NCBI GenBank assembly: GCA_030610655.1
Contig: JAUWRG010000003.1
Location: 1 to 55,492 of the forward strand
DNA: 55,492 nt
Source of the DNA: Dehalococcoidia bacterium
Lineage (GTDB): Bacteria > Chloroflexota > Dehalococcoidia > E44-bin15
Reading direction: 5' to 3'
A program made the position numbers and the translations under genes. Positions within the stretch are counted from its first letter, which is position 1. Every line of letters starts with the position of its first letter. The notes beneath the pieces are model-generated. The model did not search any database. It was not told the origin of the DNA and saw only the letters and a list, made by a program, of their open reading frames with translations. Positions 10,686 through 51,500 of the stretch are shown here, in pieces.

Positions 10686-10740
10686 AATTCACCCTCCCCC
10701 ATGGAAGCCATGCCTGCCTAAGAACCTAAAAGGAGCATGT

Positions 10741-10971
10741 TTACGCCACTGGTTCCTTGACTTCAATGACCAAAGACTCAACACCCCCTTCTTCAGGTAT
10801 AGGCTCGTTATGGGCTTTGCAGGACTCCAAGTACAGCTCGATTGCCTCCTTGGCCATAGCTATCGCCTCTTCTCTGGTCTCTCCTTGAGTGTAGCACCCG
10901 GGGAGAGCAGGCACTTCCACAGAATAGCCACCTTCCTCCTCGGGAACAAGGATAACAGTATATTTCACCAT
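10741..10971 (-). CDS. hicB: HicB-family antitoxin
   Basis: The 76-residue product is the compact HicB partial RNase H fold: YTVILVPEEEGGYSVEVPAL, PGCYTQGETREEAIAMAKEA. It should bind and neutralise HicA encoded 10 bases upstream. HicB often represses its own promoter through a C-terminal DNA-binding domain, but this short form lacks one. The pair sits just in front of intact pmbA, inside the tldD-pmbA junction. Confidence 0.9.
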   Translation of the reverse strand: MVKYTVILVPEEEGGYSVEVPALPGCYTQGETREEAIAMAKEAIELYLESCKAHNEPIPEEGGVESLVIEVKEPVA

Positions 10972-10981
10972 GATCAGCCTC

Positions 10982-11209
10982 CTATAGAAGCCTCTTGATC
11001 CCCTCGGCTGAAAGCCCTGCCTTTTTCAAGATGTTACTTAAAGTTCCAGGCTTCACCGGCTTTCCATGGACAGGGATGATTATCTTGGCGCCGGGTCTAT
11101 CTTCATGTCTCATAATAACATGGCTGCCACGGGTGCGGTCAATAAACCAGCCTTCTTTTCTAAGGGCGCTTACCAGTCTATCACCTTTTACCTGGGGTAG
11201 CTTAGACAT
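10982..11209 (-). CDS. hicA: HicA-family mRNA interferase toxin
   Basis: The 75-residue double-stranded RNA-binding-like toxin has the catalytic GSHVIMRH motif near residue 29 and KPGTLSNILKKAGLS near the end. It cuts translated mRNA when free of HicB. It is full length, unlike most HicA genes in this window. A 24-codon reading frame derived from the pmbA start ends one base before its ATG (TAG C ATG), so translation may depend on reinitiation. Confidence 0.92.
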   Translation of the reverse strand: MSKLPQVKGDRLVSALRKEGWFIDRTRGSHVIMRHEDRPGAKIIIPVHGKPVKPGTLSNILKKAGLSAEGIKRLL

Positions 11210-11210
11210 G

Positions 11211-11285
11211 CTATATAAACCACGCGCTTGGAGAAGACCTCAGCCTCACCAGAGAGTTTTTTGCTAGGTTAAGGATATTTTCCAA
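11211..11285 (-). pseudogene. pmbA 5'-end copy C, leader of hicA
   Basis: A TTG start opens a 24-codon frame beginning L-ENILNLAKNSL, matching the PmbA N-terminus; the shifted frame then gives EAEVFSK, so one or two bases have been lost. The frame ends with TAG one base before the hicA ATG. It differs from the resident pmbA start, so it came from another paralogue. It has a CGGAGG-type site upstream. Confidence 0.7.
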
Positions 11286-11344
11286 ATCTTGCCTCCGTGA
11301 GCTAAACGAACCGCAAACATCGTGTTAGGCGATGTCCACACCCC

Positions 11345-12823
11345 TCATATTCCAAGAACCCATTGGACTGTGAGTTCCTTTTCATCAAAGAGACTCTTCG
11401 CGGTCGCAGCATCATCCTTTGCAAGACGTGCAGCAATTTCACCTGACGGATCAGGATCGTCCCATATCTTATGGTCGAATATCTTCTTGACAAATCGTCT
11501 GAAGTAATCGAATTCCTCATCCGGAATGGCACGGTAGAAAAAGAGCTTTCTCTCTTCGTCTGTATAGTTTTTCAGGTGTATATTAATTGCATCTCTCAGT
11601 AGGATAGTCCAAGCCCTCACGGCTCCCGCGCTAAAGATTCTTTCAGCTTTCTTGTGCCCAGCATCAGCACGTACAGGTGCCCATTTACCTTCCAGTCCTT
11701 CTTCAGCGATAATAGTCATAAGTTTGACTAAATTGCATTTTTCGTCCTTTCGAAAGTCGGTATCGGATTCGAATTCATCCTTAACGGGCGGTGGCACCAG
11801 CATGTATTGAAAAAGGGTCTTTTTTAGACGAGCAAATGTCAAGGGTTGCTTTCGGCCTCTCTGCTTCTCTGATAGATACCTTGACAACTTGTTTGACTCA
11901 TCATCTACTATTTCGTTGTACATAGCAAGAGCAATTTCATTTCTAGCTTGTGCCCAAGTCTTTCGCTTTGCGTGGAAGAGGAAATTGTAGAACCCTAATT
12001 CTGACTTCTCTCCCTTCGTATCCATATATTCTATCCAGTCCTCTCCAAAGATATCGGCGTATTTCTGCATCAATTCATGAGAGTAAAATGACATTTGTCT
12101 GTATGCCCCATGTGCATCAAGATTTGTTTCCTTTAGTAATCTCCTATCTGGGTCGATGTAAACTTTACATTCTATCATTGAATGACCAGCCCAAATTTGA
12201 GCCGCCGCTTTATGCTGTCCGTCGAAGAGAAGAAGAGTGCCACTTTCGTCAATTCTACAAATTGAAGGTGATATCTGGGTGTTCGTTTGAAAGTGCCGGT
12301 ACAACTTCCACAAATTTGGCTCTCGTAGAGGCCTGGGTTGTAACTCCCTGTCATTTCCGATGAATTCAACTGGTAATGTTCCATAGAAGTATTTCCAATT
12401 GGTTGTTGGGCATGCGTAAAGTGGAAAGTCGTGCCTGGAATCCTTATAATAGAGGCTGATATGCCCTTCTTCAATTTCGCATTTGACTCGTTCTCCGCAA
12501 CACCTCTTTTTATGACGAATTAAATCGTCAAGAAATTTTGGCTCCCCACCTTCGAAGAATGCCTCAAGTTCTATCTTGTCACGATACTCTTGGAGACTCA
12601 TTGTACCAATCGTGCGATGGTGACGTTTGCAAACGGGAGCAATATTATCTAAGTTAGTTGGGCCACCTGAGGAAAATGGTTTAATGTGATGAAATTCGAT
12701 AGACTCATCCTCAGGAATAGGTTCCCCGTCAACAAAGCACCTTCGCTCATGCTGATCGAGAACCTTTTGTTTTTCAGTTTCTGAGAGCTGTCTTTTTTCG
12801 GCCACTTCTTTCCTTCCTTTCAT
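11345..12823 (-). CDS. HNH nuclease fused to DGQHR/ParB-like domain
   Basis: The 492-residue product starts with a charged segment and an HNH-like domain (FHHIKPFSSGGPTNLDNIAP then CKRHHRTIGT, residues about 47-75). Around residue 200 it has LLFDGQHKAAAQIW, the DGQHR motif of DndB-like/ParB-type proteins. The long C-terminal part is helical and charged, with no motif I recognise. DGQHR proteins occur with phosphorothioate and other DNA-modification or defence genes; the HNH fusion suggests a modification-dependent nuclease. A GTG at 12805 behind AAGGAAGGAAAGAA is an alternative start. It is cargo in the tldD-pmbA junction. Confidence 0.75.
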   Translation of the reverse strand: MKGRKEVAEKRQLSETEKQKVLDQHERRCFVDGEPIPEDESIEFHHIKPFSSGGPTNLDNIAPVCKRHHRTIGTMSLQEYRDKIELEAFFEGGEPKFLDDLIRHKKRCCGERVKCEIEEGHISLYYKDSRHDFPLYACPTTNWKYFYGTLPVEFIGNDRELQPRPLREPNLWKLYRHFQTNTQISPSICRIDESGTLLLFDGQHKAAAQIWAGHSMIECKVYIDPDRRLLKETNLDAHGAYRQMSFYSHELMQKYADIFGEDWIEYMDTKGEKSELGFYNFLFHAKRKTWAQARNEIALAMYNEIVDDESNKLSRYLSEKQRGRKQPLTFARLKKTLFQYMLVPPPVKDEFESDTDFRKDEKCNLVKLMTIIAEEGLEGKWAPVRADAGHKKAERIFSAGAVRAWTILLRDAINIHLKNYTDEERKLFFYRAIPDEEFDYFRRFVKKIFDHKIWDDPDPSGEIAARLAKDDAATAKSLFDEKELTVQWVLGI

Positions 12824-12904
12824 TTTTCATACATTATGGTGTGGAGCTCACCTAATCCGCTTCTGGACTATCATATTGTATCAGGTGAAGTGCATACTGC
12901 CTCA

Positions 12905-13144
12905 TCACCTCCCTCCCACCAGGCAGTTGCGAATCCTGATGTGGGGGCTGCCATTAGAGACCGGGAGGGGGGACTGCGCCCCCTTGCCACATCCTCCCCC
13001 CTCATTCATCGCCAGGTCATTACCTATGGCATCGATGTTCCCCAGAGTGGTGAATACATTGCCGGTGAGCACCACGGGGCGGAGTAGCTCAGCAATCTTG
13101 CTTCTACTCAGGTTCGGAAGGGTGAATCTGTCTTCTTACCCGAA
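12905..13144 (-). pseudogene. tldD 3'-end copy R4
   Basis: Read on the minus strand this encodes the TldD C-terminus: KIAELLRPVVLTGNVFTTLG through GGGCGKGAQSPLPVSNGSPH and ends in a stop near 12905. It lacks a start and the peptidase domain. It is nearly identical to copy R3 at 15519-15757 and more distant from the resident tldD. It lies upstream of the HNH-DGQHR gene in reading direction. Confidence 0.85.
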
Positions 13145-13178
13145 GCATCTAATAGCCTCTTTTTTGTAACCATTACAT

Positions 13179-13460
13179 TTAAGGCAGGGAGAATACAGGC
13201 ACGGCAATACTTTTATCAGGGGGAGTCCGCTCTAAAGTGACCTTGTCCATCATTTCCAGCATTTCGGGAGAGAGATATACCTCTCCACACTGAGTGCATA
13301 CCTCTGCCGGCGCATTCTCAAAGATAACGATTTCATCACCCCAATGGTGAACATGGCGAATTCTCTTATTGACAACCTTACCCTGGCAAAAATAGCATGT
13401 TTTCATAGCTTCGTTTTCCTCCTCAGCCACCTTTTTCGCCAGTTTTAGGATGTCTTCCAA
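13179..13460 (-). CDS. YgiT-type zinc finger protein joined to pmbA start, copy A
   Basis: The reading frame of 93 codons begins at a TTG with MEDILKLAKKVAEEENEA, the PmbA N-terminus, then continues as a YgiT/MqsA-type finger: MKTCYFCQGKVV and AEVCTQCGEVYLSPEM supply CxxC pairs. The native start may be the inner ATG (MKTCYF) at about 13409, which has GAGGAGG upstream. YgiT proteins are antitoxins for MqsR or DUF4258-type toxins, but no such toxin is adjacent. It is nearly identical to copy B (15793-16074); the whole 575-base block 12899-13473 is duplicated as 15516-16087. Confidence 0.8.
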   Translation of the reverse strand: MEDILKLAKKVAEEENEAMKTCYFCQGKVVNKRIRHVHHWGDEIVIFENAPAEVCTQCGEVYLSPEMLEMMDKVTLERTPPDKSIAVPVFSLP

Positions 13461-13613
13461 AATTCACCCTCCCAGGGCAGGGGGGGAATCCGAAATTTTC
13501 TCACCTTTGGCAATACGTATAACGGTATCGGGCTTTTCGAAGCCGTAGAAAGCAGTTTGGGTGGAGCGCAGCGAAGCCATAAAACCCGTGTTATCTACTG
13601 TTGCCAATCCATC

Positions 13614-14144
13614 TTAAACTTCACAAATATGCTTCTCAAGAAAATACCTAAATGATTTATTTTTCTGCTTTCCGGTTTCTATCTGAAAACACTTCAAGAT
13701 TTCCTGCATAAAATCTATCCTAGAATCGAACTTTTGGGGGATCAAATCGTTAAATTGCTCTTTGGTAACATTGTCTGTAGTGTCACAAGGGGGAATCCTA
13801 AACTCTCTGGAGGATGTATCGTCTAATCCGGCAAGGTACCAACTTTCTATTTCTTTTATTACCACTATTATCCTATCCGTATCAATGTCCTTGAATTTAC
13901 TTTGCACATCTTGTTTTTTCGCTGTTACACATGGTGCAAGGTTAATATCTGATACATAGATATAATTCGCCTTCATTCCTTTAATGCTTCTAAGAAAACG
14001 ACTAACTCTCTTGTTTCTCTCTTGTGCATATTTCCATACTGCCACTGAATCGTATTTTCCTTCAAACATAGGTTTTACTATTCTCTCGAAGAACCTTTTG
14101 TCGTCCTCCCCTTCGACGAGAATATATAATGCTTCATAGGCCAT
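13614..14144 (-). CDS. DUF4276-like TOPRIM-type partner of the ATPase
   Basis: The 176-residue protein starts with LYILVEGEDDKRFFERI, a TOPRIM-like acidic loop, and has VSDINLAPCV and VVIKEIESWYLAGL, the pattern of DUF4276/RloB-like proteins. Start and stop of the two genes are two bases apart, so it is coupled to the upstream ATPase. ATPase plus TOPRIM-like pairs include OLD-type and AbiL-like phage defence. The AT-rich composition of the pair stands out from its neighbours and suggests transfer. Confidence 0.72.
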   Translation of the reverse strand: MAYEALYILVEGEDDKRFFERIVKPMFEGKYDSVAVWKYAQERNKRVSRFLRSIKGMKANYIYVSDINLAPCVTAKKQDVQSKFKDIDTDRIIVVIKEIESWYLAGLDDTSSREFRIPPCDTTDNVTKEQFNDLIPQKFDSRIDFMQEILKCFQIETGKQKNKSFRYFLEKHICEV

Positions 14145-14146
14145 GC

Positions 14147-15409
14147 TTATACTCCCAGTAGATTTTGCACATAAAGTTCTTCTATTCCTATTTCATTTTC
14201 CAGAAATGCTTTCACCTCTTTTTTCTCAGAAGGCTTGGAAATGGTGGAAAAACCCTCTTTATCGCGAGAGATAAGCAGAATACTTTCCAAATCTGTATGC
14301 CTTACAATCTCAGGATTATGGGTGGTAACAATAATCTGCTTCTTATCTGATGCCTCTCTCATCATCTCTACAATGCTATAAATAAGGGATGGATGTATAT
14401 TTCTTTCAGGTTCTTCAATTATAGTTAATGATTTTTCTTCAAAATATAAGGCGATAACCAACGCGCTCATGTTTATTGTCCCATCAGAAATCAAAGGAGC
14501 AGGTAAATATTGTTTTTGAGCATATATTTCCTCTAATTTGAAGAGCAAAGACTTATCCGCAAATTTCTCTACATCCAATTTATTTACAAAAGGCAAAAGG
14601 TTTCTCATTAAATTAGAGAATTTCCTTTCTTTTTCTTTGTCTTCTAAAATGTTTTTTAGAACGATAGCTAAATTCTCCCCATTCTCTTCCAGTTCCATCT
14701 TTCCGGTAATCGGAACTGCTTTTTTAGGTAGCTTAGGGTCAAAATCGTATATTGAAATATTACTGAAAATCCTTCCAGGGAAAGGTGTAATGAGAAATGG
14801 AAACTCGAGGAGAAGAGTTTTAGGTGGCAGTTTTTCTTCTCCTAAAAATGCTAAAAATGGTGGGAATATATCATTTTCCCCTATTGGCACCCCCTTAGGT
14901 GGCTCCAAATCGGCCTTGACTTTCCCTCTAACATTAGAAACGATGATTCTGCCCTCGCCGAGTTCTTCTTTTTCTTCTATCTTCTTCCCCTGTTTTTCTA
15001 ATCTAATAAATTTACATTTCTGTGTTAAGCTGTCCTCGGCAATGTCAAATCCTGGCCCTCTCTTTCTAAACTTTATGGCAAACTTGTAAATCGTTTCGTA
15101 TACCTTTATTCCTATCAGCTCTTTTTCTTTTTCTCTCACCACTCTCACAAATTCTTGGTCAGCCACAACCTCTAACGAGAAGCTCTCAGATGGGCCAATA
15201 TTTATATTCCCGAGATATTCAGTGCCACCCTGCATAGATATTGCATTATCCAACCCGTAGTTTATTATGTCCCTCAAAAACGCAAAGATTCGTATAAAAT
15301 TAGACTTACCAGAAGCATTAGCGCCAATTAACACATTAAACTTTCCTAATTCTACTTCTAGGTCCCTGAAACTCTTAAAGTTCGTTACTCGTACTTTTCT
15401 TATGGCCAT
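14147..15409 (-). CDS. AAA15/OLD-like ATPase
   Basis: The 420-residue SMC/RecF-like ATPase has Walker A GANASGKSNF near residue 31, a long central insert, and signature plus Walker B LTIIEEPERNIHPSL near residue 330, followed by the His-switch segment IIVTTHNPEIVRH. It lacks a TOPRIM domain itself; the next gene supplies one. Such two-gene modules act as abortive-infection systems. It lies between tldD 3' copy R3 and pmbA 5' copy A. ATG at 15409 follows GGAGG in the sequence TAAAGGAGGTTAAATC. Confidence 0.85.
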   Translation of the reverse strand: MAIRKVRVTNFKSFRDLEVELGKFNVLIGANASGKSNFIRIFAFLRDIINYGLDNAISMQGGTEYLGNINIGPSESFSLEVVADQEFVRVVREKEKELIGIKVYETIYKFAIKFRKRGPGFDIAEDSLTQKCKFIRLEKQGKKIEEKEELGEGRIIVSNVRGKVKADLEPPKGVPIGENDIFPPFLAFLGEEKLPPKTLLLEFPFLITPFPGRIFSNISIYDFDPKLPKKAVPITGKMELEENGENLAIVLKNILEDKEKERKFSNLMRNLLPFVNKLDVEKFADKSLLFKLEEIYAQKQYLPAPLISDGTINMSALVIALYFEEKSLTIIEEPERNIHPSLIYSIVEMMREASDKKQIIVTTHNPEIVRHTDLESILLISRDKEGFSTISKPSEKKEVKAFLENEIGIEELYVQNLLGV

Positions 15410-15518
15410 GATTTAACCTCCTTTATTGGCAATGGCAGATAACAGCGGTATAAATGAACTCTGGGTTCGCCCAATCTGCTCAGGGCTGTCGTATTATACC
15501 AGCTAAAAAGGCATTGCC

Positions 15519-15757
15519 TCACCCCCCTCCCACAAGGCACTTTCTGATCCTTATGTGGGGGCTGCCATTAGAGACCGGGAGGGGGGACTGCGCCCCCTTA
15601 CCGCAACCACCCCCCTGATTCATGTCCAGGTCATTACCTATGGCATCGATGTTCCCCAGGGTGGTGAATACATTGCCGGTGAGCACCACGGGGCGGAGTA
15701 GCTCAGCAATCTTGCTTCTACTCAGGTTCGGAAGGGTGAATCTGTCTTCTTACCCCA
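15519..15757 (-). pseudogene. tldD 3'-end copy R3
   Basis: The minus strand encodes a TldD-type C-terminus (KIAELLRPVVLTGN, NIDAIGNDLDMNQGGGCGKG) ending at a TGA at 15519-15521. It is headless and has an in-frame stop further upstream. It is part of the block duplicated at 12899-13473. It stands directly before the ATPase/TOPRIM pair. Confidence 0.85.
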
Positions 15758-15792
15758 AGTATCTAATAGCCTCTTTTTTGTAACCATTACAT

Positions 15793-16074
15793 TTAAGGCA
15801 GGGAGAATACAGGCACGGCAATACTTTTATCAGGGGGAGTCCGCTCTAAAGTGACCTTATCCATCATTTCCAGCATTTCGGGAGAGAGATATACCTCTCC
15901 ACACTGAGTGCATACCTCTGCCGGCGCATTCTCAAAGATAACGATTTCATCACCCCAATGGTGAACATGGCGAATCCTCTTATTGACAACCTTACCCTGG
16001 CAAAAATAACATGTTTTCATAGCTTCGTTTTCCTCCTCAGCCGCCTTTTTCGCCCTAGATAGAATGTCTTCCAA
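15793..16074 (-). CDS. YgiT-type zinc finger protein joined to pmbA start, copy B
   Basis: This copy encodes MEDILSRAKKAAEEENEA followed by the same CxxC...CxxC finger as copy A; from MKTCYF onward the two proteins are identical. The 5' end has drifted more from pmbA than copy A. The initiation region (GGGAGGGTGAATT then TTG) is the same as that of intact pmbA. A cognate toxin is not visible. It separates an uncharacterised membrane protein gene from tldD copy R3. Confidence 0.8.
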   Translation of the reverse strand: MEDILSRAKKAAEEENEAMKTCYFCQGKVVNKRIRHVHHWGDEIVIFENAPAEVCTQCGEVYLSPEMLEMMDKVTLERTPPDKSIAVPVFSLP

Positions 16075-16116
16075 AATTCACCCTCCCTGAATAGGGGAAA
16101 ACAGGCCTTGTGCCAC

Positions 16117-16503
16117 TCATCCGAATAGCTCCGCCTGATCCCCCCATACTAAGCATGATCCCCTGTGTAGCTTCTTATTCGAATCGGCAAATGTGACTGT
16201 CCACTTTTCCCCCTTCGAGACCTTGCTAAACTCTAGCGATCTTCTATCTCCCTCCTGCAAATCCCCGAAATACCGTTTTTCTCGTTTCGACTTAATAGCC
16301 ACTTTGGATAGGGGAATTTTTTTCGCTACAGCTTCGCAGCGCACAAGTCCTCGATTATTTAGCCAACTCCATCTAACCTCTAAGAGAGTGCTACCACCAC
16401 CGAGTAGTTCTTGGTCCACTTTTCGATTGTGTTTTTGCTGCCAGATACCAAACCCGAGAGCAATAACCAACGCAACAATGCTTATGGCTAAGCTTGCGTC
16501 CAT
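16117..16503 (-). CDS. uncharacterised single-pass membrane protein
   Basis: The 128-residue product has one N-terminal membrane helix (SLAISIVALVIALGFGIWQQ) and a cytosolic domain with beta-strand character (STLLEVRWSWLNNRGLVRCE, KWTVTFADSNKKLH). I recognise no family. It lies between tldD copy R2 and the pmbA start copy B, the position taken by cargo elsewhere in this junction, so it may be a small defence or toxin-related protein. That is only positional inference. Confidence 0.6.
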   Translation of the reverse strand: MDASLAISIVALVIALGFGIWQQKHNRKVDQELLGGGSTLLEVRWSWLNNRGLVRCEAVAKKIPLSKVAIKSKREKRYFGDLQEGDRRSLEFSKVSKGEKWTVTFADSNKKLHRGSCLVWGDQAELFG

Positions 16504-16618
16504 TTATCAGCTTACCCCCTCTTTTTGCTATCTAAGTATTGCAAATACACAAGTTCGGCTCATTATGTGCGTGTCAGCCTAGAAGCATTCGAACTGAGCG
16601 TTTGAAAAAGCCATTGCC

Positions 16619-16840
16619 TTACTTCCCTCCCACCAGGCACTTGCGAATCCGTATATGTGGGCTGCCATTTGATACAGGAAGAGGTGATTGGGCACCTTTG
16701 CCGCAACCGCCCCCCTGATTCATGTCCAGGTCATCGCCGATGGCATCGATATTCTCTAAAGTAGTAAATATATTGCCGGTGAGCATTACCGGCCGGAGCA
16801 GCTCGGCAATCTTGCCGTTTCTGATCATGTAGGCCTCGCC
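16619..16840 (-). pseudogene. tldD 3'-end copy R2
   Basis: The minus strand encodes GEAYMIRNGKIAELLRPVML through VSNGSPHIRIRKCLVGGK and stop, almost the same as the resident tldD end at 17605-17826. Homology begins abruptly at the end of the small partner gene of the PIN toxin and ends about a dozen bases past the stop. An in-frame ATG at 16888 lets it stay open, but the product would lack the catalytic part. Confidence 0.88.
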
Positions 16841-16841
16841 T

Positions 16842-17030
16842 TTAATAGACATCCTCAACTTGCTTTCCCAACGATTTGATGTATTCAAGAAAACTCAATC
16901 CTTCGAGTTCCGCTTCTCTGGCAATGATTTTCCTTGCAATATGCACCTGCTGTAAAGCTGGATCATCAGGGAATTCCGCTTCTACCATTTTTCTTATTCC
17001 CTCTATTTCCTTTTCTGCAATTTTGCTCAT
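16842..17030 (-). CDS. small partner protein of PIN toxin (putative antitoxin)
   Basis: The 62-residue charged, helical product (KEIEGIRKMVEAEFPDDPAL, EGLSFLEYIKSLGKQVEDVY) follows the PIN-domain gene by 10 bases with GGAGGTAGCAC before its ATG. It has no DNA-binding motif I can name. Its place suggests an antitoxin or accessory of the PIN toxin. Its stop falls at the edge of tldD copy R2. Confidence 0.6.
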   Translation of the reverse strand: MSKIAEKEIEGIRKMVEAEFPDDPALQQVHIARKIIAREAELEGLSFLEYIKSLGKQVEDVY

Positions 17031-17040
17031 GTGCTACCTC

Positions 17041-17505
17041 CTATAATAGTTCTGCCGGCGTCATAATTTCTATTTGTCTAAATCTATTTAAAGTGTTTAC
17101 CATCTTCACTATCTCTCTGGTTTTTCTCCTTACGATATGTTTGAAATTCCAACTCAAAAGAAAATCTATCTCGTTTATCACTGCAATAGCGATATGGTAG
17201 GCATCTTCGGGGTAACCCTCCGGAACTGCGCCATAGCGAACATACTCGTTCGCTAACCATTCGACGTCATCAGTTAGGGGCAACACTGAAAATTGCGATA
17301 CTACCTCTTTCATTCTGCTTCGGAGTGCTCGGTCAGGAGTTCGTTCGATCTCAGCAGCCGTGATCTCGGAAATGAATAGCTCAAAACTTTCTATCTCTTT
17401 AAAAAAAGCCTCTGTAAGCGATTTCCTCTCTGGATTCCTCTCATCTAACAGTGCTGAGATTACTGAAGTGTCCAGATATACCTTCACTTTTCTTTTCATT
17501 CTCAT
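17041..17505 (-). CDS. PIN-domain (VapC-like) toxin
   Basis: The 154-residue PIN protein has the acidic active-site order: KVYLDTSVISALLDE (D11-type Asp), SEITAAEIERTP, and GYPEDAYHIAIAVINEIDFLLSWNFKH with the last Asp pair. VapC toxins are Mg-dependent RNases cutting tRNA or rRNA. The toxin gene precedes its small partner, the reverse of the usual VapBC order. It is the first cargo after intact tldD. Confidence 0.86.
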   Translation of the reverse strand: MRMKRKVKVYLDTSVISALLDERNPERKSLTEAFFKEIESFELFISEITAAEIERTPDRALRSRMKEVVSQFSVLPLTDDVEWLANEYVRYGAVPEGYPEDAYHIAIAVINEIDFLLSWNFKHIVRRKTREIVKMVNTLNRFRQIEIMTPAELL

Positions 17506-17604
17506 CTACCTTTTAGAAGCATGGCGTATAACTTAGAATAACCGAAATACTTCCTTTATGCACGACTCCAAGTGAAGCCTCAATCGGCACGAAAAGCCAT
17601 TGCC

Positions 17605-18975
17605 TTACTTCCCTCCCACAACGCATTTGTGAATCCGTATATGTGGGCTGCCATTTGATACAGGAAGAGGTGATTGGGCACCTTTGCCGCAACCACCCCC
17701 CTGATTCATGTCAAGGTCATCGCCGATGGCATCGATATTCTCTAGAGTAGTAAATATATTGCCGGTGAGCATTACCGGCCGGAGCATCTCGGCAATCTTG
17801 CCGTTTCTGATCATATATGCCTCGCCAGCGGAGAAGGTGAACATCTCCATACTGGTCATTCCGCCGTACCAGTTCTTGGCGTACACCCCCTCCTTGATGT
17901 CGCTGATCATCTCCTCGAAGGAGACATTCTGGGGCTCGATGAAGGTATTGGTCATACGTACGATGGGTGGATAGCGATAGCTGATGGCTCGGGCATTTCC
18001 TGTGGGTTTTTCGCCCATCTTCTCGGCAGTTTCCCTTGAGTGGAGTCGGCCCACAAGGACGCCCTCCTTGATAAGGTAGGTCCTGGTTGCGGACACACCT
18101 TCATCGTCATACTTGTAGCTGCCTCGAAGTTCAGGGATAGCGGCGCCATCGACGATGTTGAGATGTTCTCCGCCAAATCTTCGCCCTAAAACCATGATGT
18201 CTTTCATGCGCTCATTCTCATAGACGAAATCGGATTCGGACAGATGGCCAAAGGCCTCATGAGCGAAAACCCCGGCCAGAATGGGGTCGAGGACCACGGT
18301 GTATTCTCCCCCCTTGACTTGGGGTGCCGACAGCATAGCCACGGCACGCTGGGCAGTTTCTTTCACCTCTTGGTGAAGCCCTTCCATAAACCCGAAGTCA
18401 TTGCTGGAACCCATGCTAAGCGATACCTGCTGAACATCACTGTCTTGCCGTGCGATAACCGCAATGCGAAGTGTGAGGTCTACCTTTGTTTGTTCGATAT
18501 AGCTGCCTTCAAAATTGGCGAAGATGACTTTTTTAGTGCCATCTCCATAGCCAATCACAGAGGTCTGGATCTTTGGAGTCGACCAAATGAGCTCATTGTA
18601 TTCATCGAGGAGGCTTTTCTTATGAGCTAAAGGGATAGCTCTAGGGTCCTTTCTTATGGTTGGCATCACCGTATCAACCACCGGCTCCACCGGGGCAAGC
18701 TTGCTCTCTTCCTTCCCTACCAGCCTGGCTTGCTTCACCGCCAGCACCACCTTTCCCCGAAGTTCGCCGATTTCGTTGAAGCTGATGAAGCCCCAGCCTC
18801 CGTTCACCAAGGCTCGTACATTGCCGCCAAGGCTGGTGCTGCGGCCGATATCCTCCAGCTCCCGGCCCCTGTATTGAATATGGCTAGACTCCCCTTCCTC
18901 GATACGAACCTCGATATAATCGGCGTCTTGCCCCTTTAGGGCGCTGGTGATTTGGTCACGCATACTGCTTTGCAT
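17605..18975 (-). CDS. tldD: TldD-like zinc metallopeptidase
   Basis: The 456-residue protein is complete, with the zinc site HEAFGH at residues 239-244, the conserved YDDEG segment and the C-terminal GGGCGKGAQSPLPVSNGSPH region. With PmbA it forms the TldD/TldE protease that trims peptides in a closed chamber. ATG at 18975 has GGAGAG upstream. The last about 75 codons are repeated three more times downstream (R2, R3, R4). The gene is divergent from the Kef-type antiporter gene. Confidence 0.93.
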   Translation of the reverse strand: MQSSMRDQITSALKGQDADYIEVRIEEGESSHIQYRGRELEDIGRSTSLGGNVRALVNGGWGFISFNEIGELRGKVVLAVKQARLVGKEESKLAPVEPVVDTVMPTIRKDPRAIPLAHKKSLLDEYNELIWSTPKIQTSVIGYGDGTKKVIFANFEGSYIEQTKVDLTLRIAVIARQDSDVQQVSLSMGSSNDFGFMEGLHQEVKETAQRAVAMLSAPQVKGGEYTVVLDPILAGVFAHEAFGHLSESDFVYENERMKDIMVLGRRFGGEHLNIVDGAAIPELRGSYKYDDEGVSATRTYLIKEGVLVGRLHSRETAEKMGEKPTGNARAISYRYPPIVRMTNTFIEPQNVSFEEMISDIKEGVYAKNWYGGMTSMEMFTFSAGEAYMIRNGKIAEMLRPVMLTGNIFTTLENIDAIGDDLDMNQGGGCGKGAQSPLPVSNGSPHIRIHKCVVGGK

Positions 18976-41330: not shown

Positions 41331-41406
41331 TTACATACTCGCTAAAATCCTGACGATGTCCACCTTTCCGTATCTTTCCCACTCGCTATAGACACAGCCG
41401 CATTTA
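41331..41406 (-). pseudogene. queH 3'-end copy
   Basis: The minus strand reads CGCVYSEWERYGKVDIVRI then LASM and stop. Resident QueH ends CGCVYSEWERYGKVDIARI then LRRG and stop. At DNA level about nine in ten bases agree over 60 bases. It marks the far border of the HicB/HicBA unit that follows. Confidence 0.88.
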
Positions 41407-41486: not shown

Positions 41487-41729
41487 TTGGCCAAGCACCT
41501 GGTTTATTTAGAGCAAGCTGAAGAGGGCGGATATATCGTCTCTTGCCCAACGCTATCTGGCTACGTTACCCAGGGGGAGACGAAAGAAGAGGCTCTGGCT
41601 ATGATTAAAGATGCCATCGAAGGCTACATCGCTAGCCTCAAAAAGCATGGCGAACCTGTGCCACCGGGCATCGAAGAAGCTGTCGAGTCATCATCAAACA
41701 ATCTGGCTTCACAGAGGAAGAATTTTTGA
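41487..41729 (+). CDS. HicB-family antitoxin
   Basis: The 80-residue product has LVYLEQAEEGGYIVSCPTLS and TQGETKEEALAMIKDAIEGY, a HicB domain. TTG at 41487 follows a G-rich site. No hicA belongs to it; the next gene is a second hicB 26 bases on. Confidence 0.83.
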   Translation: MAKHLVYLEQAEEGGYIVSCPTLSGYVTQGETKEEALAMIKDAIEGYIASLKKHGEPVPPGIEEAVESSSNNLASQRKNF

Positions 41730-41755: not shown

Positions 41756-41974
41756 ATGAAAAGGTTATACACCGTAGTGGTGGAGCGAGACCCTGATAGT
41801 GGCTGGCTAGTAGGCGAGGTTGTGGAGCTGCCGGGATGCTATACTCAAGCAATGGATCTTCACACGCTGGAACTGAATATACAAGAGGCAATCTCTGTAT
41901 ATCTTAAGACAGCATCACCTGAGGAGCCTTTACCTGATTTTGTTGGCACCTGGCGAGTCGAGGTTTCAGTTTGA
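41756..41974 (+). CDS. HicB-family antitoxin with frameshifted partner
   Basis: The 72-residue product (RLYTVVVERDPDSGWLVGEV, ELPGCYTQAMDLHTLELNIQ) is a HicB domain. The stop overlaps the TTG start of a hicA gene as TTGA. GGAAGG precedes the ATG. Confidence 0.83.
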   Translation: MKRLYTVVVERDPDSGWLVGEVVELPGCYTQAMDLHTLELNIQEAISVYLKTASPEEPLPDFVGTWRVEVSV

Positions 41975-42219: not shown

Positions 42220-42780
42220 TTACCCCCTCCTTAAAATCCTGGCGATGTCTACCTTCCCGTATCTTTCCCACTCGCTGTAGACGCAACCGCAATACTTCTG
42301 ATGGTATAAGTCGAGTTCCCTCGAGAGCTGCTGGCTCTCCCTGAAGCCGGTCCTGAAATCCTGGTAGCAAAACTCGACTCCACGCTCCCTCCCTACCTCC
42401 TCGCCGACCTCGCGGAGCAACTCGTGCTTTTGATAGGGGCTAATAAGGAGGGTTGTGGTGAAAGATGCAAACGCGTTCTCTTTGGCAACAGCCGCAGTCC
42501 TCTCAAGACGCATCCGAAAACAATCGCCACAGCGCTCCCCCTCGTGGCCGACCACCACCCGAAAGTAAGCGATCATATCGTAGCCCTCGGCAACGATAAG
42601 GGGCAAATCTATCGCCTGAGCAAGCGCCTGCATCGACTCAAGGCGATTTCGATGCTCGGTGAAGGGATGAATGTTGGGGTTATACCAATAGGCGGTAACA
42701 TCAAAGCCCATTTCCCTGAGCCGATTTACTGTATAAGTAGCGCAAGGAGCGCAGCAGGTGTGAAGCAGTATTTTTTTCAC
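42220..42780 (-). CDS. queH: epoxyqueuosine reductase QueH
   Basis: The 186-residue protein has LLHTCCAPCATYTVNRLREM near the start, RCGDCFRMRLERTA in the middle and YCGCVYSEWERYG near the end; these Cys sets bind the [4Fe-4S] cluster and second metal of QueH. It makes queuosine in tRNA from epoxyqueuosine without cobalamin. GTG at 42780 behind GAGGG is chosen; a TTG at 42792 is an alternative. QueD is encoded at 54858-55226. Confidence 0.92.
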   Translation of the reverse strand: MKKILLHTCCAPCATYTVNRLREMGFDVTAYWYNPNIHPFTEHRNRLESMQALAQAIDLPLIVAEGYDMIAYFRVVVGHEGERCGDCFRMRLERTAAVAKENAFASFTTTLLISPYQKHELLREVGEEVGRERGVEFCYQDFRTGFRESQQLSRELDLYHQKYCGCVYSEWERYGKVDIARILRRG

Positions 42781-42938
42781 TCTCGCCCTCAAGCCTCAGA
42801 GGATGTTTAAAATGTTGGAGCGGATGCTCCAGGCCAACCAATTCTATTAGCTACTCGGACAGCTTCCTGAGGTAGGCGAGCAGGCCGATAGGCGAAACAG
42901 TCTTGGCTCTGCTTTTCTACATCTTCTATTGAAGGATC

Positions 42939-46251: not shown

Positions 46252-46357
46252 CCTGTCTGAAAACTGCGGGTAGGTTGGAGCCCTTCCACTGAAGGGCTCC
46301 AACCACGCCTAGAGCCGATGCTCTAGGCTACCCTGTTTGGCTAACCTTTTAGACACT
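46252..46357. repeat. element carrying three-way-junction repeat, copy 2
   Basis: The core 46268-46333 is GGGTAG...CTACCC around TTGGAGCCC/GGGCTCCAA and GCCTAGAGC/GCTCTAGGC. It is framed by GCCTGTCTGAAAA and the inverse of GTGTCTAAAAGG, a degenerate form of the CAGGCYGTCYAAAAA ends seen elsewhere. Confidence 0.6.
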
Positions 46358-46388: not shown

Positions 46389-47741
46389 TTGAAAGTAGAC
46401 ATGGAAAAGATAGTATCCCTGTGCAAGCGGAGAGGCATTATCTTTCAATCGAGTGAGATCTATGGCGGCCTGTCCGCCTGCTGGGACTATGGGCCGCTTG
46501 GGGTCGAACTGAAGAACAATGTCAAGTCCGCCTGGTGGCGCTCCATGGTTCAGGAAAGGGATGACATGGTGGGACTTGATTCAAGCATCCTGATGCACCC
46601 GGAGACATGGGTTGCCAGCGGTCATGTTCAGGGCTTCGCCGACCCACTGGTGGAGTGCAAGCAGTGCAACCGCAGGTGGCGTGCTGATGACTTAAAGGAA
46701 AACAGATGCTCCGAATGCGGCGGCGAAGTAACCGAGCCACGCATGTTCAACCTCATGTTCAAGACATTCTTCGGCCCAGTGGAGGATGAGGCGGCGACCG
46801 TCTACCTTCGCCCGGAGACGGCCCAGGGCATCTTCCTCAACTTCGCCAATGTGATGAGCACGACACGCAAGAAGCTGCCCTTTGGCATCGCCCAGATCGG
46901 CAAGGCGTTCAGAAACGAGATCACCACCGGCAACTTCACCTTTAGAAGCCGCGAGTTCGAGATGATGGAGGTCGAGTTCTTTGTCAAGCCGGGAACCGAT
47001 GAGCAGTGGCTTCAATACTGGCTTGAGGAGCGTCTCAATTGGTATGTCAAATTGGGCATCAAGAAGGATAACCTCCGCCTCAGAGAGCATGCCAAGGACG
47101 AGCTTGCCCACTATGCCCGCTCCTGCTATGACATCGACTACCTCTTCCCCATGGGCTGGTCCGAGCTTGAGGGCATCGCCAATAGAGGCGATTTCGACCT
47201 GACCCAGCACGCCCAATATAGCGGCAAGGATTTGAGCTATTATGACCCCGACAGCGGTGAACGCTATCTCCCCTATGTCATCGAGCCATCGGCGGGGGTA
47301 GACCGCTCGGTGCTCGCCTTGCTCATCGATGCCTACGATGAGGAGCCCGACAAGGATGCAATAAGGGTCTTATTGCGCCTCCATCCCGACCTGGCCCCGA
47401 TAAAGGTCGCCATCCTCCCCCTGAGCCGAAACGAGGCGCTGGTGCCTATGGCAAGGGATGTCTACGCCGAAGTGCGCAAATGCTTCATGACGCAGTACGA
47501 CGATGCCCAGAGCATCGGCCGCCGCTACCGCCGCCAGGACGAGATCGGCACCCCGTTCTGCGTCACCATCGATTTCGACTCGCTGGAGGACAACGCCGTC
47601 ACCATCCGCGATCGCGACAGTATGAAGCAGATTCGCGTGCCGCTGGCTGAGCTGGCAGGCACTTTGCAGAGGAAGCTTGCCGGCGAGCCCCTCGACGTCC
47701 TGCCACCAGGCGGCAAACACTGGCTGGGCTTTGAGGAGTAG
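46389..47741 (+). CDS. glyS: glycyl-tRNA synthetase (class II, single chain)
   Basis: The 450-residue alpha2-type enzyme has [20 protein letters not shown], zinc ligands in [22 protein letters not shown], motif 1-3 regions ([47 protein letters not shown]) and the anticodon domain [16 protein letters not shown]. It charges tRNA-Gly. TTG at 46389 follows GGAGGTAGATA; an ATG four codons on has poor spacing. Its last codons ([12 protein letters not shown]) are copied after the hicBA unit that follows. Confidence 0.95.
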
Positions 47742-47772: not shown

Positions 47773-47801
47773 AGATTAAGATTCCCAGGTGGAGGTTGAA
47801 T

Positions 47802-48014
47802 GTGTTAGTTAAGATGGAAACCTATTTCGATGGTGAGTTTTGGTGTGCTCGAGGGATAGGGGAGGATATTTTTACACAGGGTAACACTTTAGACGAGCTA
47901 TATGAAAATATCAAAGAGGCGGTCTCCGTTCATTACGGTGAAACAGATGAGCCTATTACTATTCTTACTCTGTCCGAGGTAAGGCTAGCAGATGCCAAAG
48001 CTTCCACAGGTTAG
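47802..48014 (+). CDS. hicB: HicB-family antitoxin
   Basis: The roughly 70-residue product (LVKMETYFDGEFWCARGIGE, TQGNTLDELYENIKEAVSVH) is a HicB domain. GTG at 47802 is placed six bases after GGAGG; a TTG at 47796 is too close. It overlaps hicA by 23 bases. Confidence 0.85.
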   Translation: MLVKMETYFDGEFWCARGIGEDIFTQGNTLDELYENIKEAVSVHYGETDEPITILTLSEVRLADAKASTG

Positions 48015-48234
48015 CAGCAGCGATGTAATTGGGCTCCTTCAATCTCTAGGCTACGAAATTGTTAGACAACGAGGGAGTCATATTCGGCTAAGAAAAGCCA
48101 CACCTCTAGGCGAGCACACCATTACCGTCCCGGCACACAGGGTTTTGGCCAAAGGGACTCTGAGCGACATCCTCAACAGAATAGGCCTATGGAATAATAT
48201 CCCAAAAGAAGACCTTCTTAACAGACTGAGATAG
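47992..48234 (+). CDS. hicA: HicA-family mRNA interferase toxin
   Basis: The 80-residue toxin has EIVRQRGSHIRLRKATPLGE with the catalytic His, and VLAKGTLSDILNRIGL. It is intact, and with its antitoxin forms one of two whole HicAB pairs in the window. Order here is antitoxin first, the reverse of the pair at 10741-11209. Confidence 0.9.
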   Translation: MPKLPQVSSSDVIGLLQSLGYEIVRQRGSHIRLRKATPLGEHTITVPAHRVLAKGTLSDILNRIGLWNNIPKEDLLNRLR

Positions 48235-48249
48235 GGGTGTGCCCTGTGC

Positions 48250-48288
48250 CCCCCCGGCGGCAGCTACTGGCTGAGGTTCGAGGGGTAA
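48250..48288 (+). pseudogene. glyS 3'-end copy
   Basis: Twelve codons read PPGGSYWLRFEG then TAA, against [12 protein letters not shown] then TAG at the end of resident glyS. It begins just after the hicA stop. The small size is offset by the order of genes: glyS, hicBA, glyS end. Confidence 0.75.
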
Positions 48289-48311: not shown

Positions 48312-48893
48312 ATGCCTAAGCAGCTTCTCTCTACAGACGAACAAATTAAGAAGCTCAATTCTGTTGAGCTTCTGGCAAAAGAAGCCGCCACTTCCGATGA
48401 CATCGTTCGAAAGGTAGGTGCCGTCGCGATCTATGCAGGATTAGCTGACTTCTATGTTATTCAGACCGCCCGTCTTGTAGAACAGATAATACTCAAGTCC
48501 CAGTTGGAAATGGGGGAACAGCCGAAATTCATGCCAAGACCAGATTCCTATTTTTACGATAATCGAGTGGACACTCGGAGGATTCTGAGAATCAGCAAGA
48601 AGGAAATCCTGCCCTTTCGAGCAGTGACTTCGGAGTCGCCAGCAGATGCCGACCGAGCTAATGCCCTAGCCAACAATTTCATCGCCAAGACAGAAAAATT
48701 CCTCAACTACCGGAATAGCATCATTCACCATTTAGGTAGTCCCAAGATGACACTCGAGAAAGTGTACACGTTATGCGACAAGGCCATCCGAGCCTATGAG
48801 GATCTTCAGCGTGCTCACACTGCTTTCTTCAATGCGCTACAGCCTTACCGTTTTGGAGATAAAGAGCTTCGATACTTCTATGGCAGTACCTGA
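48312..48893 (+). CDS. HEPN-like helical protein
   Basis: The 193-residue, mostly helical product has FLNYRNSIIHHLGSP near residue 150, an R-x4-H as in the catalytic motif of HEPN RNases. VGAVAIYAGLADFYVIQTAR near residue 35 also fits HEPN-type helices. No nucleotidyltransferase partner is adjacent. ATG at 48312 follows AAAGGAGGGAATTGT. The family call rests on one motif and overall shape. Confidence 0.5.
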   Translation: MPKQLLSTDEQIKKLNSVELLAKEAATSDDIVRKVGAVAIYAGLADFYVIQTARLVEQIILKSQLEMGEQPKFMPRPDSYFYDNRVDTRRILRISKKEILPFRAVTSESPADADRANALANNFIAKTEKFLNYRNSIIHHLGSPKMTLEKVYTLCDKAIRAYEDLQRAHTAFFNALQPYRFGDKELRYFYGST

Positions 48894-48982: not shown

Positions 48983-49027
48983 ATGAAAATCCTTCACTTT
49001 GCCGACCTGCACTTGGGGGTATCATAA
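48983..49027 (+). pseudogene. sbcD 5'-end copy, leader of DUF167 gene
   Basis: ATG opens MKILHFADLHLGVS then TAA; resident SbcD at 50274 begins MKILHFADLHLGVENYG. About 37 of 40 bases agree. The short frame ends three bases before the DUF167 start. Confidence 0.88.
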
Positions 49028-49030
49028 GAT

Positions 49031-49315
49031 TTGAGTCAGAATCAAACAAACATCACCGTCCAGGTGCAGCCCAACGCCAGGCGCAATGAGGTGCTGGGGC
49101 TTGAGGATGGGGTTTTGCGCGTCAAGATCGCGGCGGCGCCGGTGAAGGGGAAAGCCAACAAAGAGCTTATCGACTTCCTGAGCCAACTCCTAGGGATAAG
49201 CAAGAGCAGCATTATGATAGAGAAAGGGCTTGCCAGTAGGAAGAAGGTCATTGCTATTCAGAGTCTGGACCAACTCCAGATTCTAGAGCGATTGGGAGCC
49301 AGACCCCGAGAATGA
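49031..49315 (+). CDS. DUF167/YggU-family protein
   Basis: The 94-residue product has NITVQVQPNARRNEVLGLED and VKGKANKELIDFLSQLLGIS, the YggU/DUF167 fold. Function is unknown; it is usually near cell-division or repair genes. The TTG start has only a GGGGG stretch, supplied by the preceding sbcD copy, as ribosome site. Confidence 0.85.
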   Translation: MSQNQTNITVQVQPNARRNEVLGLEDGVLRVKIAAAPVKGKANKELIDFLSQLLGISKSSIMIEKGLASRKKVIAIQSLDQLQILERLGARPRE

Positions 49316-49358: not shown

Positions 49359-49578
49359 TTGTCATTCTGAGGACCCCGACTTGTCGGGGGACGAAGAATC
49401 TGGAGCGAAGCGACGAAGAATCTAGAGCTAAGCTACCAAAGAACCCCCTCTCGCAAACACAACGCAGAGATTCTTCGCCTTCGCCTGCCCTGAGCGCCAT
49501 GGGATTCTCCCCCTTCACGGAGCCTGCCCTGAGCGTGTTGAGATTCTTCCCCTTCACTTTGTGAAGGGTCAGAATGAC
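49359..49578. repeat. CATTCTGAG/AGAATGACA palindromic repeat cluster
   Basis: The stretch contains repeated GAAGAATCT and GATTCTTC units, CCTGCCCTGAGCG twice and ends in CAGAATGACA. It shares a long block with 35117-35155. No gene lies between the DUF167 and hicB genes. Confidence 0.75.
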
Positions 49579-49704
49579 AGGAAGCCGAAGGGGCTCGTAG
49601 TGACACAGCATTACGCGCATGCTTTTTCGCACGAAAGCCTTGGGTTCCGCCGATAAACACTTGCAGGTGGATGACATTCGCTTCGAGCACTTTCCCCACA
49701 ACAG

Positions 49705-49733: not shown

Positions 49734-49982
49734 ATGGAGTACACCGTTGTCATCAGGAAGGCACCCGACGGCTTCTACATAGCTAGCTGCCCCGTGATTC
49801 CCGAAGCCCACGCTCAGGGTGAGACCCATGAGGAATGCGTGGCTAACCTAAAGGAAGCGCTCGAGCTTTGCCTTGAATACCGCAAAGAGCGAGGCGAGGA
49901 AATCCCACAGGAAATTGGCACGAGTCAGGTCACTAGTAACATAGGCGATGTAGCTAGCTCCAGATGTAGGGCGAGGCTTTAG
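49734..49982 (+). CDS. HicB-family antitoxin, orphan
   Basis: The 82-residue product (YTVVIRKAPDGFYIASCPVI, AQGETHEECVANLKEALELC) is a HicB domain. The last dozen residues are encoded by a dispersed repeat that replaced the normal end. No hicA is found. Confidence 0.8.
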   Translation: MEYTVVIRKAPDGFYIASCPVIPEAHAQGETHEECVANLKEALELCLEYRKERGEEIPQEIGTSQVTSNIGDVASSRCRARL

Positions 49983-50017: not shown

Positions 50018-50166
50018 TTTTTTGTTGTTGCCATAGCTGAACCGCCATGTGGCCACATGACAAAGCTATCCCACTTAAAGCCCAAGATTGACGAGGATGA
50101 ATTTTTGTGAGCTATCGGTCGAATGCAATTTTTTAACTTCGAAAATAGATTCTCATGCTTTATCTT

Positions 50167-50222
50167 GGGTAGGTTGGAGCATCGGCTCCAACCATGCCTA
50201 GAGCAGATGCTCTAGGCTACCC
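50167..50222. repeat. three-way-junction palindromic repeat, copy 3
   Basis: GGGTAGG...CTACCC around TTGGAGC-ATCG-GCTCCAA and GCCTAGAGC-AGAT-GCTCTAGGC; 56 bases, inverse orientation to copy 1. It lies in the 290-base gap before sbcD, where nothing else is seen. Confidence 0.75.
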
Positions 50223-50273
50223 TCTATTTTCATGACTCGCTTGTGGACAGTAGGCCATGATAGTTTTTAGATT

Positions 50274-51500
50274 ATGAAAATACTTCACTTTGCCGACCTG
50301 CACCTGGGGGTGGAGAACTACGGGCGCATCGACCCGAACACGGGTCTGTCCTCCCGCCTCGGCGACTTCCTTTCAGCCTTTGATGAGGTGGTGGAATACG
50401 CCCTGAACGAAAATATCGACCTCATCCTTTTCTGCGGCGATGCCTATAAAAGCCGTGAGCCGTCCCAGACGCACCAGCGCGAGTTCGCCAGGCGCATCTG
50501 GCGCCTCGCCTCCAATGACATCCCGGTCTTCCTCCTCATCGGCAACCACGACCTCCCCAATGCCATTAATCGCGCCACCAGCATAGAGATCTTTCAAACC
50601 CTGGCCATACCGAACGTCACCGTGGCCAACCACCCCGGCACCTACCAGATAAAGACCAAACCAGGCCCCCTCCAAGTGGTAGCCCTGCCCTGGGCGAGGA
50701 GGGTCGCCCTGCTGAGCAGGGAGGAGACGAAGAACCTTACCCTTGATGAGCTTAATGAGAGACTGGAGAAGATACTCACCGAGCGCATAATGGCAGAGGT
50801 GGAGGGCCTTGACCCGAGCCTGCCGGCGATACTCGCCGCTCACGTCTTCGTCCACGGCGCCCAGACCGGCTCGGAGAGAAGTATGATAATGGGACATGAC
50901 TATATGCTCCTGCATAGCAGCGTAGCCAACCCCGCCTTCGATTATGTCGCCCTGGGTCATATCCACAAGTCCCAGGTGCTCGGTGAGAATCCGCCTGTGG
51001 TTTATGCCGGGAGCCTGGAGCGCATCGACTTCAGCGAGGAGGAAGACAAGAAGGGTTTCTACGTTGTGGAAATAGGGCCGGACAAGCAGGTATCCTATGA
51101 ATTCCACCCGGTGAAGGCGCGACGCTTCCTCACCATCAAGGTCAACGTCGCTCCCCTGGAGCCCGACCCCACCCAGGCGGTGCTCGAGGCCATCGCCAGG
51201 CATGATGTAAAAGATGCCATTGTGCGGGTGCAGGTGGCCATTTCGGAGCGGCTTGAGGGGCTGCTCGATGAGGGGGAGATTCGCAAAGCGCTTAAGGATG
51301 CCCACTTCATTGCCGCCATCGCCAGGGATGTGGAGCGAGAGCGCCGCCCCAGGATGTCGGGCTTCACCGCCGAGGGGATGACCCCCATGGAGGCACTGGA
51401 GGTCTACCTCAACTCCAAGAACATATCGAAAGAACGTATCAAGGTGCTTCTCGAGTACGGCCAGAGGCTGATCGAGGAAAGCAGATCAGAGGAACCCTGA
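50274..51500 (+). CDS. sbcD: SbcD/Mre11-like DNA repair nuclease
   Basis: The 408-residue metallophosphoesterase has the five-motif order: HFADLHLG, LILFCGDAYKS, LLIGNHDLPNA, AAHVFVHG and YVALGHIHKSQ, binding two metal ions. The C-terminal 130 residues match the SbcD capping and SbcC-binding region. It processes DNA ends with an SbcC ATPase, but no sbcC follows. The start region is copied at 48983. Confidence 0.88.
   Translation: MKILHFADLHLGVENYGRIDPNTGLSSRLGDFLSAFDEVVEYALNENIDLILFCGDAYKSREPSQTHQREFARRIWRLASNDIPVFLLIGNHDLPNAINRATSIEIFQTLAIPNVTVANHPGTYQIKTKPGPLQVVALPWARRVALLSREETKNLTLDELNERLEKILTERIMAEVEGLDPSLPAILAAHVFVHGAQTGSERSMIMGHDYMLLHSSVANPAFDYVALGHIHKSQVLGENPPVVYAGSLERIDFSEEEDKKGFYVVEIGPDKQVSYEFHPVKARRFLTIKVNVAPLEPDPTQAVLEAIARHDVKDAIVRVQVAISERLEGLLDEGEIRKALKDAHFIAAIARDVERERRPRMSGFTAEGMTPMEALEVYLNSKNISKERIKVLLEYGQRLIEESRSEEP

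Follow-up and report, generated by a model that had tools for sequence, protein, structure and literature searches.

CIMEs and integron cassette arrays grow by tandem accretion at a conserved site, carry short repeats between their cargo genes and are rich in toxin–antitoxin systems; their hallmark is a dedicated recombinase together with a conserved att or attC core. How toxin–antitoxin and defence genes spread and cluster without any mobility gene is an open question. The minimal mobile element of Neisseria (Saunders and Snyder, in PMC3898611) is presented there as a site between two conserved genes at which whole-gene cassettes vary by strain. These cassettes, often defence genes, are described as devoid of mobility genes and as exchanged through the homology of their flanks (PMC3898611). 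In H. pylori, selfish or defence genes are reported to have been inserted with a long direct repeat of the target at their edges (Nobusato et al., 2000, cited in PMC1643837 and PMC3031569). Homology-facilitated illegitimate recombination during natural transformation, as outlined in PMC6382021 and papers cited there, brings in foreign DNA without an integrase: one homologous anchor is combined with a second join at 3–10 nt of microhomology, a process known from laboratory transformation.

Here, we describe a locus in 55,492 nucleotides of DNA from a Dehalococcoidia bacterium (hereafter the window). This uncultured member of the Chloroflexota appears to retain scars, copies of gene ends, at places where small genes of its relatives enter beside essential genes. 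We think it probable that a 38-nt copy of the start of sbcD is one recombination scar of a genome-wide class, left where DNA from relatives has repeatedly been anchored by homology and joined at microhomology. No paper describing such arrays of gene-end scars was found in the limited literature library searched.

The copied sbcD start and its surroundings

The locus, on the forward strand throughout, is bounded on the left by glyS, encoding glycyl-tRNA synthetase (46389–47741; Pfam HGTP_anticodon and tRNA-synt_2b; 95.5% amino-acid identity to the relative G001), and on the right by sbcD (50274–51500; Metallophos, PF00149), the gene of which the scar is a copy by type. The scar occupies 48983–49020 and comprises the start codon and 12 codons; over its 38 nt it is identical to the first 38 nt of sbcD (50274–50311) at 36 positions, and both differences are silent (ATC/ATA at a third codon position, and TTG/CTG for leucine). 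A motif covering both variants, with up to three mismatches allowed, matched the scar and the sbcD start and no other place in the window, and had no match in 100 dinucleotide shuffles, so that the chance expectation is zero. In the whole genome assembly, the 21-nt core of the scar occurs twice, again in the scar and at the sbcD start. The likeness to sbcD stops at 49020 with the bases GGGGGT, and the reading frame, MKILHFADLHLGVS*, runs into a stop codon at 49025–49027, 3 bases short of the TTG (49031) of a DUF167 (YggU) gene (49031–49315; PF02594, E 2e-24).

The earlier note had described precisely this, an sbcD start copied in front of DUF167 and ending 3 bases ahead of its TTG, and it had also placed DUF167, a repeat cluster, a HicB orphan and junction repeats between copy and gene; both descriptions hold. 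Downstream of DUF167 lie a cluster of small repeats (about 49390–49560) and a HicB-like antitoxin gene (49734–49982; weak UPF0150/HicB_lk match), followed by a mere 3' remnant of hicA (about 50077–50125), recognised by comparison with the intact hicA of L038 and L041; G001 has an intact hicA in the same place. On the other side of the scar, the 3' end of glyS is followed by a hicB–hicA toxin–antitoxin pair (47796–48234; HicA_toxin, PF07927, E 1.7e-14), present in the same place in G001, and by a copy of the glyS 3' end itself (48248–48288; LCPPGGSYWLRFE plus stop), detected by tblastn with the last 45 residues of glyS. An ORF of 193 aa (48312–48893) separates this glyS scar from the sbcD scar. 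It had been called HEPN-like: the ORF (193–218 aa) does carry the RN...H motif (RNSIIHH) and has no Pfam match, which leaves the assignment possible but unproven.

We compared the sbcD regions of members of the same Dehalococcoidia family, including G001 from the same genus; sbcD orthologues were found in 50 of 60 relatives. DUF167 directly precedes sbcD in G003, G010, G006 and G002, and on this comparison looks like the ancestral arrangement. Scars of the sbcD 5' end accompany differing cargo in G001, G008, G004 and G012, and in degenerate form in G002. The order is DUF167, scar, hicBA remnants, alcohol dehydrogenase and sbcD in G008; PAS-like gene, scar, hicB and sbcD in G012, where the scar matches the gene without a difference for about 50 nt; scar, PAS-like gene and sbcD in G004; and glyS, hicBA, degenerate scar, mutase cluster, DUF167 and sbcD in G002. 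The 3' end of glyS is likewise duplicated in the genome under study, G001, G004 and G029 (42 codons in the last). These gene-end fragments, with cargo that varies across relatives, argue for repeated insertion of cargo beside glyS and sbcD, each event leaving a fragment. The proposal that the copy is a 5' scar with its start codon, marking an insertion and complementing 3' scars elsewhere, is thus supported by its recurrence at the locus in relatives.

In G001, which also carries a further glyS scar, the junction of the sbcD scar with DUF167 is identical to that of the window to the base, yet its state differs: the window has the HEPN-like cargo and a fresh scar (36/38), whereas in G001 the corresponding two scars enclose a DinB-family gene, and the sbcD scar, of the same length, is decayed, with 26/38 matches to its own sbcD. 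The two sequences are read most simply if the scar served again as a homology arm when the cargo was replaced.

Not all that had been suggested for the scar stood. A functional 14-residue peptide is rejected: between the two congeners the scar is conserved at 27 of 38 positions as against 34 of 38 for the real sbcD start, and the congener scar has several amino-acid changes and an altered start codon. A longer, truncated sbcD paralogue, from which the scar might have decayed and which would have counted against the earlier note, was looked for in relatives and none was found, the G001 scar having the same length and junction. This genome's own sbcD need not be the source of the copy; scars of the same set include ends of other-genus type, and 38 nt are too few for donor assignment. 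An older sbcD scar before the HicB-like gene (about 49634–49671) would fit the position seen in G012, but 37 of 500 shuffles align equally well and we do not claim it.

Gene-end copies elsewhere in the genome

The phenomenon extends far beyond the sbcD start: within a fifth of the genome, eight genes or more are involved. A simple scan for DNA identity was confounded by paralogues, above all in G004, and we therefore searched each protein against its surroundings by tblastn and separated terminal from internal fragments, keeping partial matches of at least 60% identity. In 328 kb of the genome (the window and 20 contig stretches, about 20% of the total), a copy of the gene's end alone lies near 8 of 264 genes, as against 4 of 1487 in controls from other Chloroflexota and E. 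coli combined (Fisher p = 7e-5). The individual controls gave 0/350 (G027), 1/254 (G052), 1/268 (other Dehalococcoidia loci), 1/210 (E. coli, at rhsD) and 1/405 (mostly Anaerolineae, a low-complexity match). Polarity is uniform: all 13 copies of 3' (C-terminal) ends lie downstream of their gene and both copies of 5' (N-terminal) ends upstream, always on the same strand. Internal partial matches numbered five, on four genes, and involved paralogues, repeats or an antisense ORF that is an artefact. In G004, 2 of 320 genes scored, both at glyS–sbcD, and further samples of the family yielded one more clear array, in G009. The scan gave no terminal scars in 138 kb of G001, which indicates that scar density varies between genomes.

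The largest array lies between tldD (17605–18975) and pmbA (9381–10685) on the minus strand (9381–18975), where cargo is interleaved with copies of the tldD 3' end and of the pmbA 5' end. Reading from tldD, a PIN-domain toxin gene (17041–17505; PF01850, E 2.6e-10) is followed by the first tldD scar, t' (16619–16840, 73 codons), an ORF of 128 aa (16117–16503) and the first pmbA scar, p' (16033–16089), which is fused to a YgiT/MqsA-like antitoxin gene (15793–16074). The second tldD scar, t'' (15519–15725), precedes an AAA ATPase gene and a small partner (13614–15409; AAA_21, E 2e-31) resembling HEC-01/AriA defence pairs; PADLOC assigns the ATPase to HEC-01A (E 1.7e-50) and matches the partner to HEC-01A/HEC-01B models (E 3e-7 to 5e-7). 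The second pmbA scar, p'' (13419–13475), is fused to a second YgiT-like copy (13179–13460), so that the unit of pmbA scar, YgiT and tldD scar occurs twice, at a spacing of 2614 nt. This YgiT-like copy is followed by t''' (12905–13111), a gene for a 492-aa HNH-domain protein (11345–12823; PF01844, E 7.8e-7), a degraded pmbA scar, p''' (11242–11300), recognised by eye and under the threshold of the scan, and hicA–hicB (10741–11209; HicA_toxin, E 8e-20; HicB_lk_antitox, E 5e-14). The empty site is preserved in G001, where the TAG of tldD is followed at once by the TTG of pmbA; the two genes also abut without cargo in G008, G011, G007 and G012, and enclose a single cargo, different in each case and between conserved flanks, in G002, G004, G009 and G010. 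As read from the sequences, the pattern is that of a minimal mobile element, stacked several deep in the genome under study.

Further arrays and scars lie elsewhere. At lysS (L051:2197–6370), five 3' scars separate ParE/RHH, HicBA and DUF433/DUF5615 pairs in the manner of a cassette array. At uvrB (L057:6827–12832), two 5' scars are fused, as B'A' junctions, to 3' scars of the upstream neighbour and accompany GmrSD-like, HEPN, ImmA-like and DUF4411 genes; the two uvrB scars differ in cargo yet end at one and the same base. At aroE–aroC (L061:7949–12610), scars surround a DUF4258/YgiT pair, a MazE-like antitoxin with its partner and a RelA/SpoT-domain gene, and the YgiT-like antitoxin of this pair recurs in the tldD–pmbA array; aroE 3' scars are also present in G002 and G010. 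In G009 (L302:8370–13097), the start of a citramalate-synthase-like (cimA-like) gene is copied twice upstream. Within the window, a 3'-end scar (41343–41402, minus strand) of a QueH-like gene (42220–42792) is separated from that gene by two HicB-like ORFs (41487–41729 and 41756–41974). These two ORFs lie on the opposite strand.

The ancestry of the scars is mixed. The scar nearest to tldD, t', is of own-genus type (95–96% identical to the tldD of this genome and of G001), whereas t'' (84–85.5% to other genera, 81.5% to own tldD) and t''' (84.8% to G009, 77.9% to own tldD) are closer to other genera (84–85%) than to the resident gene (78–81%). The glyS scar of the window likewise has 91% nucleotide identity to the glyS end of G009 and G004 as against 76% to its own glyS. 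Local duplication alone does not predict these affinities.

The breakpoints were inferred from relatives of other genera, no strain pair from either side of a single event being among the genomes compared. At the focal junction, sbcD reads CTGGGGGTGGAG, the scar TTGGGGGTATCATAAG and the un-recombined DUF167 leader of G012 (L041) CTCAAGGGGGTATCATAGGATTTGAG or, at greater length, CTCAAGGGGGTATCATAGG; comparison of the three shows that six bases, GGGGGT (49015–49020, forward strand), are common to sbcD and the native DUF167 leader. Two further junctions, between p'' and its YgiT-like gene (CTGAGGAGG) and between YgiT and the aroE scar (AAAAAAG), bring to three those at which both parents are known, with microhomologies of 6, 7 and 9 nt. 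The junction of the uvrB scar with the upstream gene shares about 5 bases and was left out of the count, one parent being uncertain.

Possible routes of insertion

Under the reading that we favour as probable, DNA from relatives, carrying the same conserved gene together with foreign cargo (toxin–antitoxin, defence or other small genes), would be taken up and would pair by homology within the conserved gene, and its other end would be joined without real homology, at a microhomology of a few bases, within or just next to the end of the adjacent conserved gene. Since anchors such as tldD and pmbA abut without a spacer, viable insertions would be those that keep a full-length copy of each gene, and the product would therefore retain an extra gene-end fragment, a 3' end behind the 3' anchor or a 5' start before the 5' anchor. 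Repeated rounds would build arrays of alternating cargo and scars, and the scars, about 35–220 nt long, would then be likely to act as short arms of homology in later cargo swaps and duplications. We infer that the DNA arrived by uptake, that the founding insertion took place by homology-facilitated illegitimate recombination and that swapping through the scars followed; import of this kind seems to need neither a transposase nor an integrase. Random end-joining alone does not predict the end base shared by the two uvrB scars, for which inheritance of the junction or scar-mediated exchange is needed. It is conceivable, though doubtful, that the scars function as the recombination sites of a cassette system that dispenses with an integrase, integron-like but with sites borrowed from housekeeping genes, and it is with the same reserve that we suggest that these 35–220-nt gene-end copies allow toxin–antitoxin and defence genes to be stacked, exchanged and handed on from one genus to another.

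The shared uvrB end base would also suit site-specific integration of small non-autonomous elements (CIME-like elements or cassettes), whose recombinase would recognise a gene end and restore the gene, the displaced end remaining as an attachment-site scar. Integrases typically restore the gene at their target sites, elements of this sort are known to accrete in tandem, and many scars are alike in length (about 38–55 nt at sbcD, glyS and lysS). We nevertheless regard this as quite unlikely: the scars derive from eight or more gene ends, 5' as well as 3', that are unrelated and have no common core motif (by eye), their lengths vary between about 35 and 220 nt, the array contigs C47, C7, C13 and C17 yielded no integrase domain, and the cargo lacks mobility genes. 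Insertion with a long target duplication, in which both copies stem from one resident target sequence, gives the same outward product as that of H. pylori restriction-modification genes (PMC1643837, PMC3031569), and agrees with the G012 sbcD scar, with its identity to the gene over about 50 nt, and with the own-type t'. For several scars, however, other genera offer a closer match than the resident gene does, the cargo is diverse rather than of the restriction-modification kind, and units that combine a 3' with a 5' scar in the manner of a module are unlike simple target duplications, all of which makes this origin improbable.

The repeated pmbA–YgiT–tldD unit with its 2614-nt spacing, the different cargo that the same scars enclose in G001 and in the window and the occurrence of a YgiT-like gene in two different arrays are what would be expected if circles of cargo and one scar were excised between scars and reintegrated, Campbell-fashion, by a single crossover at a conserved gene end, the scars being attachment sites that require RecA only. 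This account leaves the first acquisition unexplained, no circle was seen, and 38–50 nt is close to the lower limit of RecA pairing; we judge it unlikely. An artefact of metagenome assembly, with spacer variants of different strains stitched together, is largely refuted and very improbable. The genome consists of 91 contigs and its named relatives are mostly metagenome bins, but the scars are diverged rather than identical overlaps, recur in at least five genera, and are found with the same junction bases in the independently assembled genome of another species (G001).

The proposed process of anchored import operates as a minimal mobile element would if an illegitimate join were added, and its products are like those of insertion with long target duplication. 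Different whole-gene cassettes, without mobility genes, lie between the same conserved genes (tldD–pmbA) as in the minimal mobile element, and the conserved flanks fit exchange by flank homologous recombination alone, whereas scars and microhomology point to an extra illegitimate step. In addition, several cassettes are stacked per genome and split by fragments of the flanking genes, and exchange crosses genera; such stacking lies outside the minimal mobile element as described. As in the H. pylori type, the inserts have target sequence directly repeated at their edges, but a single resident origin applies only to t' and the G012 sbcD scar, and the foreign ancestry of t'', t''' and the window glyS scar departs from the strict form of long target duplication; the scars are, moreover, gene ends of fixed polarity that accumulate in arrays. 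The microhomologies of 6, 7 and 9 nt fall in the 3–10 nt range of homology-facilitated illegitimate recombination, which in contrast to its laboratory form would here take place repeatedly in nature, in a lineage that is uncultured. Tandem accretion, cargo split by short repeats and abundance of toxin–antitoxin genes recall CIMEs and integron arrays; unlike these, the arrays have no integrase and no attC or att core (by eye), and use many unrelated target genes. Gene-end scars constitute an ordered record of imports, each marking a breakpoint and, in some cases, the lineage of the donor. A simple scan is enough to count them in any genome, which makes the idea directly testable across uncultured lineages.

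Machinery and repeats

Tyrosine-recombinase or integrase domains occur at four places in the genome, on contigs C79, C27 and C4 only. Ku-type end joining is rejected, a search of 15 genomes having found no Ku. ComEC is encoded in the genome under study and in 9 of 14 relatives, and its presence suggests natural competence. Mobility genes were absent from the cargo by Pfam, the exception by eye being a repeat-flanked, RAYT-like transposase ORF just before the aroE 3' scar in L266 and L267 (G002 and G010); in G010, the locus read contains only the end of this ORF. A 40-nt palindromic repeat of a REP-like family (GCCTAGAGC..GCTCTAGGC) is present twice in the window, at 46295–46334 and 50184–50223, with 95% identity between the copies, and a further occurrence lies near L061:8110–8170.
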